Below are positions 8,542 through 12,427 of a stretch of DNA of 64,000 nucleotides, piece after piece. Each line of letters begins with the position of its first letter. Position 1 is the first letter of the stretch. This DNA is from Sinomicrobium pectinilyticum (GTDB lineage Bacteria > Bacteroidota > Bacteroidia > Flavobacteriales > Flavobacteriaceae), in assembly GCF_003725735.1 (NCBI RefSeq), contig NZ_RJTM01000026.1, forward strand, positions 1 through 64,000, given 5' to 3'. Under the pieces are notes generated by a model, which did not search any database, was not told the origin of the DNA, and saw nothing but the letters and a program-made list of their open reading frames with translations. The translations under genes and the position numbers were made by a program.

Positions 8542-10947
8542 ATGAAACGACACATTAAGAAAGTAGCGGTAATCGGCTCCGGGATTATGGGAAGTGGCAT
8601 TGCCTGCCATTTTGCCAATATCGGTGTAGAAGTACTGCTTCTCGATATCGTCCCCCGCGAACTTACCGAAAAAGAACAGCAAAAAGGACTGAGCCTGGAA
8701 GATAAAATCGTCCGCAACCGTATAGCTAACGACAATCTGGCTTCCGCATTAAAATCCAGCCCCTCTCCTATTTACCACAAAAATTTCGCAGACCGGATCA
8801 CTACGGGAAACCTTGAAGATGATATAAAGAAAATTGCAGATGCAGACTGGATCATTGAGGTTGTTGTAGAAAGACTGGATATCAAGAAAAAGGTTTTCGA
8901 GCAGATTGAGCGGCACCGCACCCCGGGTACCCTTGTTACTTCCAATACATCGGGTATTCCTATTCATTTTATGAGTGAAGGCCGTAGTGAAGATTTCCAG
9001 AAGCACTTTTGCGGAACACACTTCTTTAATCCTGCACGTTACTTAAAACTATTCGAAATCATACCGGGACCGAAAACTTCCGGGGAAGTGCTGGATTTTC
9101 TGAATATATACGGAGACAAGTTTCTCGGAAAAACATCGGTAGTAGCCAAAGACACCCCTGCATTCATAGGAAACCGTATCGGTATTTTTGGTATTATGAG
9201 CCTGTTCCATCAGGTTAAGGACATGGGACTTACCGTAGAAGAAGTGGATAAACTTACGGGACCGGTGATCGGGCGTCCCAAATCCGCTACCTTCCGGACG
9301 GTAGATGTTGTAGGATTGGATACCCTTGTCCACGTAGCCAACGGCTTATATGAAAACTGTCCGGATGACGAAGCCCACGATCTTTTTAAACTTCCGGATT
9401 TCATCAATACTATGATGGAGAACAAATGGCTGGGAAGCAAAACCGGCCAGGGATTCTACAAGAAAATTAAAGGAGAGGACGGAAAAAGCGAAATTCTTTC
9501 CCTCGATCTGGACACACTGGAATACCGTCCCGGCAAAAAAGCTTCTTTCGGCACACTGGAACTCACCAAAACCATTGACCGGCCCATAGACCGTTTTAAA
9601 GTACTCGTAGAGGGCAAGGACAAGGCCGGTGAGTTTTACAGAAAGAACTTCTCTGCCTTGTTTGGCTATGTTTCTCATCGTATCCCCGAGATCACGGACG
9701 ATCTTTATAAAATAGACGACGCTATGAAAGCCGGTTTCGGCTGGGAAAACGGTCCCTTTGAAATCTGGGATGCCATCGGCGTGAAAAAAGGCCTGGAGAT
9801 AATGAAAGCCGAAGGGTACAAAGCTGCAGACTGGGTCGGAGAAATGCTGACCTCCGGTAACGAGTCTTTCTATACCGTAAAAGAGGGTAATACCTATTAT
9901 TACGATATTCCCTCCAAATCCCAGGTGAAAGTCCCAGGACAGGATGCCTTTATTATTCTGAACAACATACGCGAAAGCAAAAAAATATGGAGCAACAGTG
10001 ATGCCGTTATCGAAGACCTGGGCGACGGAATTCTGAACCTGGAATTCCAGTCCAAGATGAACACCATCGGCGGAGAGGTACTACAGGGGATCAATAAAGC
10101 CATAGACCTTGCGGAAAGGGAATATGCCGGACTGGTGATCGGTAACCAGGCGGTCAATTTCTCCGTAGGGGCCAATATAGGAATGATCTTTATGATGGCT
10201 GTGGAGCAGGAATATGACGAACTGAACATGGCTATTAAAATGTTCCAGGATACCATCATGCGTGTACGCTATTCCTCTGTTCCGGTGATTGTGGCGCCAC
10301 ATGGCATGACCCTGGGCGGCGGATGCGAAATGAGCATGCATGCCGATAAAGTGGTGGCCGCGGCAGAAACTTATATCGGTCTCGTGGAATTCGGTGTAGG
10401 GGTTATTCCCGGAGGAGGCGGTTCCAAGGAAATGACCCTGAGAGCGGCCGATACCTTCAAAAAAGATGATGTGGAACTTAATGCCCTGCGTGAATATTTC
10501 CTGACTATCGGTACTGCAAAAGTATCTACATCCGCATATGAAGCATATGACCTGGGTATCCTTCAAAAAGGAAAAGACATTATTGTGGTCAACAAGGACC
10601 GTCAGATAGCGGAAGCAAAGAAACATGCCTTATTACTGGCAGAAGCCGGATACACACAACCTGTCCGGAGAAAAGACATCAAAGTCCTAGGGAAACAGGC
10701 GCTGGGAGCGTTCCTGGTGGGTACCGATAGTATGTACGCAGGTAAATACATATCTGAACACGATAAGAAAATCGCAAATAAACTTGCCTATGTCATGGCT
10801 GGTGGTGACCTGTCCGAAGCCACAAACGTCAGTGAGCAGTACCTGCTGGATCTCGAAAGAGAAGCCTTCCTCTCACTCTGTACCGAACGAAAAACACTGG
10901 AACGGATACAACATATGCTTAAGACGGGGAAACCATTGAGAAATTAG
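8542..10947 (+). CDS. fadN: 3-hydroxyacyl-CoA dehydrogenase / enoyl-CoA hydratase, FadN-like
   Basis: An 801-residue bifunctional beta-oxidation enzyme. The N-terminal NAD-binding domain starts with 'VAVIGSGIMGSGIACHFANI' (residues 8-27), followed by the 3HCDH C-terminal domains ('TPAFIGNRIG', 'GPVIGRPKSATFRTVDVVGLD', 'GFGWENGPFEIWDAIG'). The C-terminal half is a crotonase-fold hydratase with 'GMTLGGGCEMSMHAD' (about 588-602) and 'GVIPGGGGSKE'. The dehydrogenase-then-hydratase order is that of Bacillus FadN and opposite to E. coli FadB. The next two genes are a thiolase and an acyl-CoA dehydrogenase, the same set as Bacillus fadNAE. A relic ORF with repeat arrays separates it from the thiolase gene. 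Confidence 0.9.
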   Translation: MKRHIKKVAVIGSGIMGSGIACHFANIGVEVLLLDIVPRELTEKEQQKGLSLEDKIVRNRIANDNLASALKSSPSPIYHKNFADRITTGNLEDDIKKIADADWIIEVVVERLDIKKKVFEQIERHRTPGTLVTSNTSGIPIHFMSEGRSEDFQKHFCGTHFFNPARYLKLFEIIPGPKTSGEVLDFLNIYGDKFLGKTSVVAKDTPAFIGNRIGIFGIMSLFHQVKDMGLTVEEVDKLTGPVIGRPKSATFRTVDVVGLDTLVHVANGLYENCPDDEAHDLFKLPDFINTMMENKWLGSKTGQGFYKKIKGEDGKSEILSLDLDTLEYRPGKKASFGTLELTKTIDRPIDRFKVLVEGKDKAGEFYRKNFSALFGYVSHRIPEITDDLYKIDDAMKAGFGWENGPFEIWDAIGVKKGLEIMKAEGYKAADWVGEMLTSGNESFYTVKEGNTYYYDIPSKSQVKVPGQDAFIILNNIRESKKIWSNSDAVIEDLGDGILNLEFQSKMNTIGGEVLQGINKAIDLAEREYAGLVIGNQAVNFSVGANIGMIFMMAVEQEYDELNMAIKMFQDTIMRVRYSSVPVIVAPHGMTLGGGCEMSMHADKVVAAAETYIGLVEFGVGVIPGGGGSKEMTLRAADTFKKDDVELNALREYFLTIGTAKVSTSAYEAYDLGILQKGKDIIVVNKDRQIAEAKKHALLLAEAGYTQPVRRKDIKVLGKQALGAFLVGTDSMYAGKYISEHDKKIANKLAYVMAGGDLSEATNVSEQYLLDLEREAFLSLCTERKTLERIQHMLKTGKPLRN

Positions 10948-10978
10948 ATATAAGATTTGAGACTTGAGATATTAGATA
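10947..10978 (+). repeat. Left heptanucleotide array (4 units), inverted partner of 11206-11240
   Basis: Directly after (and overlapping by one base) the fadN stop codon: consecutive 7-mers GATATAA, GATTTGA, GACTTGA, GATATTA, then GATA. Rotated, the units read NNTTGAGA/NNTTAGA, which is the reverse complement of the TCTAARR units in the right array. The two arrays flank a 48-56-residue relic ORF. Confidence 0.55.
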
Positions 10979-11005
10979 ATTGTTAACCGACTAAAAACTC
11001 TGAAT

Positions 11006-11176
11006 ATGCATCTGAACCCGTGCCAAAAGGCTATGAACATAACCGGGCAGGCTTATATTATTACATCGCGATTTCCTGTTAATCTCATTTCTGAAAAAGA
11101 AGTAACACCTCTTATAGAAGATTTGATCGAAGTACAAAAAATAAATTATACTTTGATAAAAAAGTTTTCAAAATAG
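11006..11176 (+). pseudogene. Relic ORF resembling the C-terminus of a four-helix-bundle (S23/IVP-type) protein
   Basis: A 56-codon ORF (alternative ATG at 11033, 47 residues). Its end, 'NLISEKEVTPLIEDLIEVQK' then 'INYTLIKKF', resembles the last helices of the roughly 120-residue 'four helix bundle' proteins related to 23S rRNA intervening-sequence proteins, which are frequent in Bacteroidota. The N-terminal two thirds of such a protein are missing, so it reads as a decayed copy. It lies between fadN and fadA and is flanked by inverted 7-base repeat arrays. The assignment is by eye and tentative, and it may not be translated. Confidence 0.4.
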
Positions 11177-11205
11177 CATTAAAGCAAAAGACTTGATACG
11201 TAACA

Positions 11206-11240
11206 TCTAAGGTCTAAATTCTAAGATCTAAAATCTAAAA
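11206..11240 (+). repeat. Right heptanucleotide array, five TCTAARR-type units
   Basis: Five exact-spacing 7-mers beginning at 11206, 11213, 11220, 11227 and 11234 (TCTAAGG, TCTAAAT, TCTAAGA, TCTAAAA, TCTAAAA), ending two bases before the thiolase ATG. In the mRNA it could pair with the left array (10947-10978) and loop out the relic ORF. Confidence 0.7.
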
Positions 11241-11242
11241 AA

Positions 11243-12427
11243 ATGAAAAAAACAGCATATATAGTAAAAGCATACCGTACCGCGGTTGGTAAAGCTCCGC
11301 GGGGGACGTTCCGGTTCAAAAGGCCCGATGAACTCGCCGCGGAGACTATTCAGCACCTGATGAACGAACTGCCGGGGCTGGATAAAAACCGTATTGATGA
11401 TGTTATGGTGGGAAATGCCATGCCCGAAGCTGAACAGGGATTGAATATGGGCAGGCTCATCTCCCTCATGGGGCTCGACATTGTCGATGTTCCCGGGGTA
11501 ACGGTTAACAGGTACTGTGCATCCGGAATAGAAACCATAGGTATGGCAACAGCAAAAATACAGGCCGGAATGGCCGATTGTATTATAGCCGGAGGAGCCG
11601 AAAGTATGAGCTATATTCCTATGGGCGGATATAAACCCGTCCCCGACTATGCCGTGGCTAAAGCAGGGCATGAAGATTATTACTGGGGAATGGGACTGAC
11701 CGCAGAGGCCGTAGCCGAAAAATACAAGGTTTCCCGTGAAGACCAGGACGAGTTTGCCTATAATTCACACCAGAAAGCATTAAAAGCACAGGCCGAAGGT
11801 AAATTCGACCGGCAGATCGTCCCTATAGAGATCGAACAGGTCTATGTAGATACTTCCGGAAAAAAAACCGAAAAATCCTATACCGTAAATAAAGACGAAG
11901 GTCCCCGCGCAGATACTTCCCCGGAAGCGCTGGCAAGGCTAAGGCCCGTATTCGCCAACGGGGGCAGTGTTACTGCTGGTAATTCCTCGCAAATGAGCGA
12001 CGGTGCCGCCTTTGTTATGGTAATGAGTGAAGAAATGGTAAAGGAACTCAACCTGGAGCCCATAGCACGCCTGGTAAGCTATACCGCTGCCGGTGTGGAA
12101 CCCAGAATAATGGGTATTGGCCCCGTGATAGCCATTCCGAAGGCATTGAAACAAGCCGGTATGCAATTAAAGGATATCGAACTGGTGGAACTCAATGAAG
12201 CTTTTGCTTCTCAATCCCTTGCCGTAATCCGCGAACTCGGCATGAACCCGGATATTGTGAATGTAAATGGAGGGGCCATAGCCCTGGGGCACCCGCTCGG
12301 ATGTACAGGGGCCAAATTATCCGTACAACTGTTTGACGAAATGAAACGCCGCGGTAACAAGTACGGAATGGTTACCATGTGTGTAGGTACCGGTCAGGGA
12401 GCAGCAGGGATTTATGAATTGTTATAG
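11243..12427 (+). CDS. fadA: Acetyl-CoA C-acyltransferase (3-ketoacyl-CoA thiolase)
   Basis: A 394-residue thiolase performing the last step of beta-oxidation, cleavage of 3-ketoacyl-CoA by CoA. The nucleophilic cysteine is in '[12 protein letters not shown]' (Cys92). The other catalytic residues are His350 in '[15 protein letters not shown]' and Cys380 in '[11 protein letters not shown]'. 'LNEAFA' is also present. Length is normal for the family. It is the second enzyme of the fadN-fadA-fadE operon and is followed by fadE after 33 bases. The ATG sits immediately after a heptamer repeat array, which may affect ribosome access. Confidence 0.95.

Follow-up and report, generated by a model that had tools for sequence, protein, structure and literature searches.

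Between fadN and fadA of Sinomicrobium pectinilyticum lies a short spacer which, as is well supported by the comparisons below, represents a decayed insertion of a gene of the S23 family (S23/23S_rRNA_IVP, four-helix-bundle proteins), bounded by two inverted arrays of seven-nucleotide repeats. The stretch of DNA analysed, here called the window, comprises positions 1 to 64,000 of contig NZ_RJTM01000026.1, 64,000 nucleotides in all. On the basis of S23 loci from other genomes we propose, with a probability of about 0.6, that such insertions are copies of a small mobile unit, the S23 element, which consists of one S23/IVP gene between inverted arms, typically of five R-G-N5 units each (R, purine; N, any nucleotide; the unit is of 8 nt in a minority), and that these arms bind the S23 pentamer. 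Across the sequences compared, S23 genes of Bacteroidota and of cyanobacterial plasmids stand between such arms, the left and right arm of one locus correspond to each other, the unit is present or absent at given junctions, and gene-less derivatives with five plus five units occur; S23 binding, catalysis and the form of nucleic acid involved are what we infer.

The fadN-fadA spacer in the window and in relatives

The features of the spacer and of its neighbours are as follows.

10946..10980, plus strand: left arm, five in-phase R-G-N5 units (AGATATA AGATTTG AGACTTG AGATATT AGATAAT), Tandem Repeats Finder (TRF) score 56
11202..11236, minus strand: right arm, five in-phase R-G-N5 units (TCTAARR repeats on the plus strand), TRF score 55
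11006..11176, plus strand: 56-codon open reading frame (ORF), an in-frame remnant of an S23/23S_rRNA_IVP four-helix-bundle gene, with the start ATG retained and most of helices 1-3 lost
11078..11173, plus strand: segment of the ORF with homology to the C-terminal helix in S23 proteins (tblastn)
8542..10947, plus strand: fadN, the upstream gene (ORF list)
11243..12427, plus strand: fadA, the downstream gene (ORF list), with its ATG at 11243, 6 nt past the right arm

The insertion starts at the stop codon TAG of fadN (10945-10947), which contains the first AG of the left arm. The right arm, read on the minus strand from 11236 down to 11202, is AGATTTT AGATCTT AGAATTT AGACCTT AGATGTT. The scores of the two arms are the two highest that TRF gives in the whole 64 kb. 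A mechanical count gives six units for the left run, since one AGA codon of fadN falls by chance into the same register; from the fadN stop codon onward there are five. Runs of at least five in-phase RG dinucleotides at period 7 occur five times in the window, and a single inverted pair of them within 700 nt is found, that at fadN|fadA; when the window was simulated 100 times with an order-3 Markov model, such a pair appeared anywhere in 2 cases. When a repeat-identity filter was applied, the fadN|fadA pair was the sole one within 1500 nt in 464 kb, that is, in the window plus 400 kb of one congener.

The ORF between the arms was recognised as an S23 remnant by homology. Its last 32 codons match S23 proteins with a best per-query E of 1.5e-7 and 53% identity over 32 residues (tblastn, 217 queries tried, composition correction off), a profile built from intact relatives matches it at model positions 12-33 and 90-120 (E 6.4e-6), and it can be aligned with orthologues from the same fadN|fadA site. 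Judged from these alignments, the S23 gene of the window has lost its middle in frame, and its start codon, its C-terminal helix and both arms survive. The ORF is too short for a match to Pfam (no family, PF05635 included, up to E 1), and its best NCBIfam match is weak (E 0.013, NF008911 positions 86-116); it has partial homology to S23 (PF05635, TIGR02436) and no domain match above the curated cut-off.

The intact relatives are PF05635/TIGR02436 proteins. Among S23 residues, Q38, S45, N49, E52 and E75 are invariant. One of them, L065 (PF05635, E 1.2e-41), is predicted to fold as a four-helix bundle (pLDDT 96) which superposes on 2GSC with a TM-score of 0.94 and also on 2RLD. Both structures contain five chains, and 2GSC is described as a toroidal homopentamer in PMC4990558. 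The fold is related to that of Avd of diversity-generating retroelements (4DWL, TM-score 0.80, E 0.02; ribonucleoprotein entries 8UB7 and 8UBE), although sequence kinship is weak (E 9e-7, 29 bits against an Avd cut-off of 80). Four intact S23 proteins were scanned against Pfam and NCBIfam, and no transposase scored above a cut-off. PF05635 was present in 6/6 genomes of the genus, 113/149 of the family and 157/198 of the phylum, and in none of 14 control genomes. S23 as phage cargo was also considered and rejected: one S23 query against 50,697 phage records had no match at E 1e-3.

FadN could be identified in 145 of the 149 family genomes and in all six of the genus, and the spacer between fadN and fadA was read at 34 loci. 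Eight of these hold an intact S23 gene and two a decayed one (the window and L054), three an ORF resembling REP-associated tyrosine transposases (RAYT-like), and five apparent gene-less inverted arrays; in ten, all from other genera, fadN and fadA are joined directly with a spacer of 17 nt or less, and the remaining six, of 24-91 nt, were left unassigned. Within the genus, an intact S23 gene is found at this junction in two of five congeners. The MHKVDD-type S23 is intact in G003 and decayed in G002 and G000, the MASTHNF-type is carried by G005, and a RAYT-like ORF stands in G001, with a remnant in G004. The RAYT-like ORFs or apparent remnants in this spacer are those of L055:2200-2805 (G001), L056 (G004) and L029 (G047). 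L055, the only one given a family search, matched NF047646 at E 2.4e-15, below the cut-off, and had no match in Pfam. Two unrelated small elements, S23 and RAYT-like, favour the fadN|fadA junction.

In at least 29 of 149 family genomes an S23 gene is found no more than 400 nt downstream of fadN. On a FastTree phylogeny of 217 S23 proteins there are 16 changes of the fadN|fadA label (a raw count with no shuffled-label baseline). A second frequent S23 site lies after fadA, in the same operon, in at least 11 of 149 family genomes, L010 (G005) being one example. The gene-less fadN|fadA hairpins L028, L035 and L043 have at least five units on both strands (the L026 spacer was left out of this assessment). 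The left arm of L005, a congener element at fadN|fadA, consists of about nine near-perfect tandem copies of a 14-nt double unit, from which it follows that slippage can lengthen one arm and leave the other as it is.

The first-pass annotation of this DNA had described inverted heptamer arrays around a 56-codon ORF, likened the end of the ORF to the C-terminal helices of S23/IVP proteins, and suggested that a cassette had been inserted between fadN and fadA and had then decayed. The positions of arrays and ORF agree with the TRF and in-phase scans, and the likeness to S23 was confirmed by the match of the last 32 codons. The annotation had also proposed structure prediction, here carried out on the intact relative, the window ORF being matched by homology, and a comparison of spacers across relatives, which showed both filled and near-empty junctions. 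Insertion followed by decay is supported by the tests on S23 flanks, spacers and ORF homology. Two points had to be revised: the arrays are real and have a period of 7, but the repeated unit is R-G-N5 and not a fixed sequence, and the insertion reflects a recurrent landing site rather than one event.

Inverted arms at S23 loci and their relation to the protein

A first set of 217 S23 loci was obtained by merging groups of 107, 29 and 82 (one duplicate flank removed), the 107 being the family loci with a full-length match among 115 S23 ORFs. A second set of 59 loci (1 of 60 dropped) was picked before the flanks were seen. The lag-7 score exceeded the 99th percentile of shuffles in the left flank of 56 and the right flank of 38 of the 107 family loci; lag 8 did so in 18 left and 19 right flanks, and lags other than 7, 8, 14, 15, 16 and 21 in 0-5. 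Each left flank was then compared with reverse-complemented right flanks: across the 107 loci it scored 14.5 against its own partner and 8.2 against those of other loci, the largest of 2000 permuted means being 8.92, and the own right flank ranked first for 33 and within the top five for 68. The result was repeated in the 59 further loci (14.5 own, 8.0 others).

The dinucleotide of the unit that is most often fixed is AG (143 of 235 arms), and the period is 7 in 193 arms, 8 in 42 and 6 or 9 in 10. In 145 of 217 loci the coding strand is rich in G in the left arm and rich in C in the right; the reverse is seen in 7. The same anatomy was found in 80 named loci, a few of them on contigs of metagenome-assembled genomes (MAGs) labelled Clostridia, Ignavibacteriae and Proteobacteria, which may be misbinned, and also on complete cyanobacterial plasmids, which are isolate records. 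A further 32 loci in non-Bacteroidota MAG genomes were not counted as new, since roughly one in three was among the named loci. Away from S23 genes, eight more RG arrays were located in 400 kb of the congener G001, three of them with an inverted partner by eye. The first-pass annotation had looked to the S23 genes of Flavobacteriaceae for flanking inverted arrays; they are present there, but the arrangement is not confined to that family and extends far wider.

In the first set the number of units peaks at five in both arms. Among the 217 loci, the longest in-phase RG run was 4, 5 or 6 units in 27, 64 and 24 left arms (shuffles 6.3, 0.7 and 0.3) and in 21, 54 and 8 right arms (shuffles 2.3, 0 and 0.3). 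With one locus per 60% protein cluster (n = 106) the corresponding counts were 19, 24 and 9 on the left and 10, 25 and 4 on the right, and in the second set the peak at five recurs in the left arms only (9, 16 and 9; n = 59). A pentamer ring matched to five units would be the simplest reading of these numbers.

The letters of the heptamer also appear to follow the protein. When 21,112 pairs of loci from unrelated contexts are compared, arm similarity shows no trend below a protein identity of 0.45 and climbs above 0.5. The 2148 such pairs with identity of at least 0.5 score 9.12, compared with a mean of 8.31 and a maximum of 8.65 in permutations, and the share of pairs scoring above 12, about 1% to begin with, reaches 10, 15 and then 22% as protein identity grows. 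Of 59 same-genome pairs whose proteins are of low identity, none scored above 12. This test, run on the 217 loci, left out 2121 pairs in related contexts, and its threshold of 0.5 was chosen after a weak all-pairs Mantel result was known. On these sequence comparisons, heptamer similarity follows the S23 protein rather than the genome, a relation visible only at protein identities of about 0.5 and above.

Presence, absence and placement of the element

Several junctions exist in filled and empty forms. The murD|ftsW junction is filled in two of six congeners and empty in four. Before argH, S23 genes of two kinds are present in three of the six, gene-less arms in one (L269) and neither in two. 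At one plasmid junction T. variabilis and Scytonema carry the element and three records, at a flank identity of 97-98%, have an empty site of 13 nt, and the GTAAT of the empty allele stands on both sides of the filled element. In the plasmid pair L332/L350, TTCTA is found on both sides of the element (L349 differs from L350 in its reading at this junction). Both duplications share letters with the upstream gene's stop codon, and they are the clean 5-bp target duplications seen in two of seven filled/empty plasmid contexts. Presence/absence together with these two duplications supports the mobility of S23 units. Gene-less copies with inverted ends, a feature reminiscent of miniature inverted-repeat transposable elements (MITEs), are L028, L035, L043 and L269, which we regard only as candidates for mobility.

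As to placement relative to neighbouring genes, S23 is co-directional with both neighbours in 229 and opposite to both in 11 of the 259 loci (out of 276) for which neighbour orientation was clear. The first left unit lies -3 to 15 nt from the upstream stop codon in 82 of 144 loci, and in 86 of 118 the end of the right arm is -5 to 20 nt from the start codon that follows.

On cyanobacterial plasmids, some S23 genes stand between CRISPR genes (L325 and L326, cas6|cas4; L333, cas10|cmr3). On the Nostoc plasmid pNsp_a, a gene-less array-bounded insertion (L332, about 406-675) was seen about 0.5 kb upstream of the S23 element; it is absent in L349.

Proposed mechanism, alternatives and related systems

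In the mechanism that we propose for the S23 element, an S23 ring of five would bind one R-G-N5 unit per subunit on each arm, much as TRAP, an 11-subunit trp RNA-binding ring, binds spaced NAG triplets. Ring binding would mark and join the ends of the element, the five variable letters of the unit would act as an address particular to each S23 subfamily, transcription of the host operon would supply the S23 protein, and a staggered cut would be made by S23 itself or by a partner. The likeness to TRAP lies in the ring and in one spaced AG-containing repeat per subunit, S23 ring binding being our assumption; TRAP differs in being an RNA regulator with no kinship to S23. More tentatively, and with somewhat less than even confidence, we suggest that S23 elements form a separate class of transposable element across several phyla, in which a pentamer reads two five-unit arms and carries the unit to places between genes, at stop codons; the intervening sequences (IVSs) of 23S rRNA would be one niche of this class, gene-less hairpins its miniature form, and much of the bacterial excess of heptamer repeats its arms.

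A number of observations weigh against the S23 element as proposed. No binding, excision or transposition has been observed, and S23 is without a known catalytic motif. Both arms reach at least four units in just 88 of 217 loci; the right arms of the second set have no peak at five (runs of 4, 5 and 6 at 12, 11 and 6 loci, the commonest value being 2); and the 12 plasmid loci have runs from 1 to 15, arms which overlap a gene end being undercounted. At L182, L201, L206 and L208 the arms are of equal or reversed polarity, and these are perhaps tandem or rearranged copies. A clean target duplication is lacking in five of the seven filled/empty plasmid contexts (B, C, E, F and G: L328/L341, L329/L344 + L345, L333/L351, L324/L352 and L326/L348), and 4-6-bp duplications are not in excess in 102 older elements (k = 5, 27 against 27.4 expected). 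When protein and heptamer similarity were compared by a Mantel test across every pair of the 107 loci, the Spearman coefficient was 0.058, and 55 of 999 permutations were as high. In addition, the heptamer repeats of Xanthomonas are reported to be generally apart from mobile elements and mostly between the same genes in two species (PMC4692102), which speaks for old or fixed copies.

The alternative that we take most seriously, although we consider it unlikely, is an element acting at the RNA level, whose arms pair in the polycistronic transcript into a long stem and are cut by RNase III as in IVSs, the gene thereby leaving the RNA and any movement proceeding via RNA and a borrowed reverse transcriptase. 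The IVS of Coxiella burnetii contains an S23 ORF and a 28-bp terminal inverted repeat cut by RNase III, and beside the ORF stand three tandem heptamers GACAGAT plus a fourth variant (PMC4990558). The prevailing operon sense of S23 genes and the fold shared with Avd, weak as that kinship is by sequence, point in the same direction, and the arms of the window are predicted to be able to pair as RNA (duplex of -17.6 kcal/mol). Against it, arm mismatches comprise 217 G:U and 320 A:C, so that a stem on the sense strand is not favoured, although A-rich leaders confound this count; the two 5-bp target duplications resemble a staggered DNA cut; and no Rfam family matches the spacer (10900-11300) up to E 1. 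Movement in trans by another transposase, for example a RAYT, with S23 as passenger or accessory, appears to us a good deal less probable still. RAYT-like ORFs do replace S23 at fadN|fadA in two of five congeners and in one other genus, and gene-less hairpins, if mobile, must move in trans; the family assignment of these ORFs comes from L055, the only one searched, with no match in Pfam, and were the ends recognised by a foreign enzyme, the heptamer would not be expected to be tied, as it is, to the S23 subfamily.

The remaining explanations do without mobility. S23 could be an inherited operon gene which regulates its own or its neighbour's translation by ring binding to the repeats, and the overlap of the arms with leaders, as seen in the position of the right arm end, fits such a role. 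This reading is disfavoured by presence/absence within one genus, by clean filled and empty alleles at closely similar flanks, by different S23 kinds at one junction, by the label changes on the S23 tree (with the caveat given above) and by gene-less copies, and we hold it to be very improbable. That the arms are simple repeats made by slippage near a common small gene we find scarcely credible and have rejected. Slippage is the published guess for bacterial heptamer repeats (PMC4692102); the lag-7 periodicity, the inverted flank matching repeated in the further loci, the RG phase, the polarity, the peak at five and the rarity of paired runs in simulated windows all speak against chance.

Among known systems, the S23 element resembles the IVSs of 23S rRNA in having an S23 ORF within terminal inverted repeats, and the Coxiella heptamers, put in register, read AG-N5. 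IVSs stand inside 23S rRNA and are cut from RNA, whereas S23 elements stand between protein genes, with a heptamer that depends on the subfamily and typically five units per arm; the element of the window, between fadN and fadA, is outside 23S rRNA. Insertion sequences (ISs) are likewise short, with one gene, inverted ends and presence/absence, and a 5-bp duplication would be a further likeness, seen here in two of seven contexts and not in excess in the older elements; S23 elements are without a recognisable transposase, and their ends are tandem heptamers set by phase and RG rather than by a fixed sequence. The class has neither the rRNA location of IVSs nor the transposase of ISs, and it is akin to the 23S rRNA IVS. 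MITEs, and the REP-derived hairpins (REPINs) associated with RAYTs, share the gene-less inverted-repeat hairpins between genes, and RAYT-like genes share the junction; the gene-less S23 copies, in contrast, have no sequence in common, carry five plus five units and have a coding relative with S23 instead of RAYT. With Avd the likeness is one of four-helix-bundle fold and weak sequence kinship, S23 falling below the Avd cut-offs and the arm-defined element containing no reverse transcriptase.

Heptamer repeats have been published without this context: GGGAATC in Xanthomonas, with 70 and 75 inverted pairs in two genomes, and GGGGA(C/T)T in Nostoc (PMC4692102), and TAACTGA in Beggiatoaceae and others (PMC4679880), which reads AGTTATC when reversed. 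In the excerpts of these papers the repeats resemble S23 arms in their 7-nt period, their intergenic position and a C-rich strand close upstream of start codons, and differ in that S23 is not mentioned in connection with them, part of them are unpaired, and many occupy the same intergenic position in related species. S23 genes are known from Xanthomonas as well, XCC0516 being one. These repeats and the Coxiella IVS are compatible with the R-G-N5 arm rule; period, strand and place suggest that they may be S23 arms. Our search of the open-access literature, with preprints and most subscription papers outside its scope, found no paper that ties heptamer arrays to S23 genes beyond rRNA.

Structures of S23 proteins ("four helix bundle") have been solved since 2006, and to our knowledge no function has so far been assigned to them. 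If the arms are S23 binding tracks, the family gains one. Mobile-element ends would, moreover, be built here in a new way, by a periodic code in which five RG-N5 units fit a pentameric ring and the five free letters can differ between subfamilies; as no two subfamilies share sequence, this would explain how the elements have escaped repeat finders. Two puzzles, why heptamer repeats are in excess in bacteria and where the intervening sequences of 23S rRNA come from, would then merge into one testable question.

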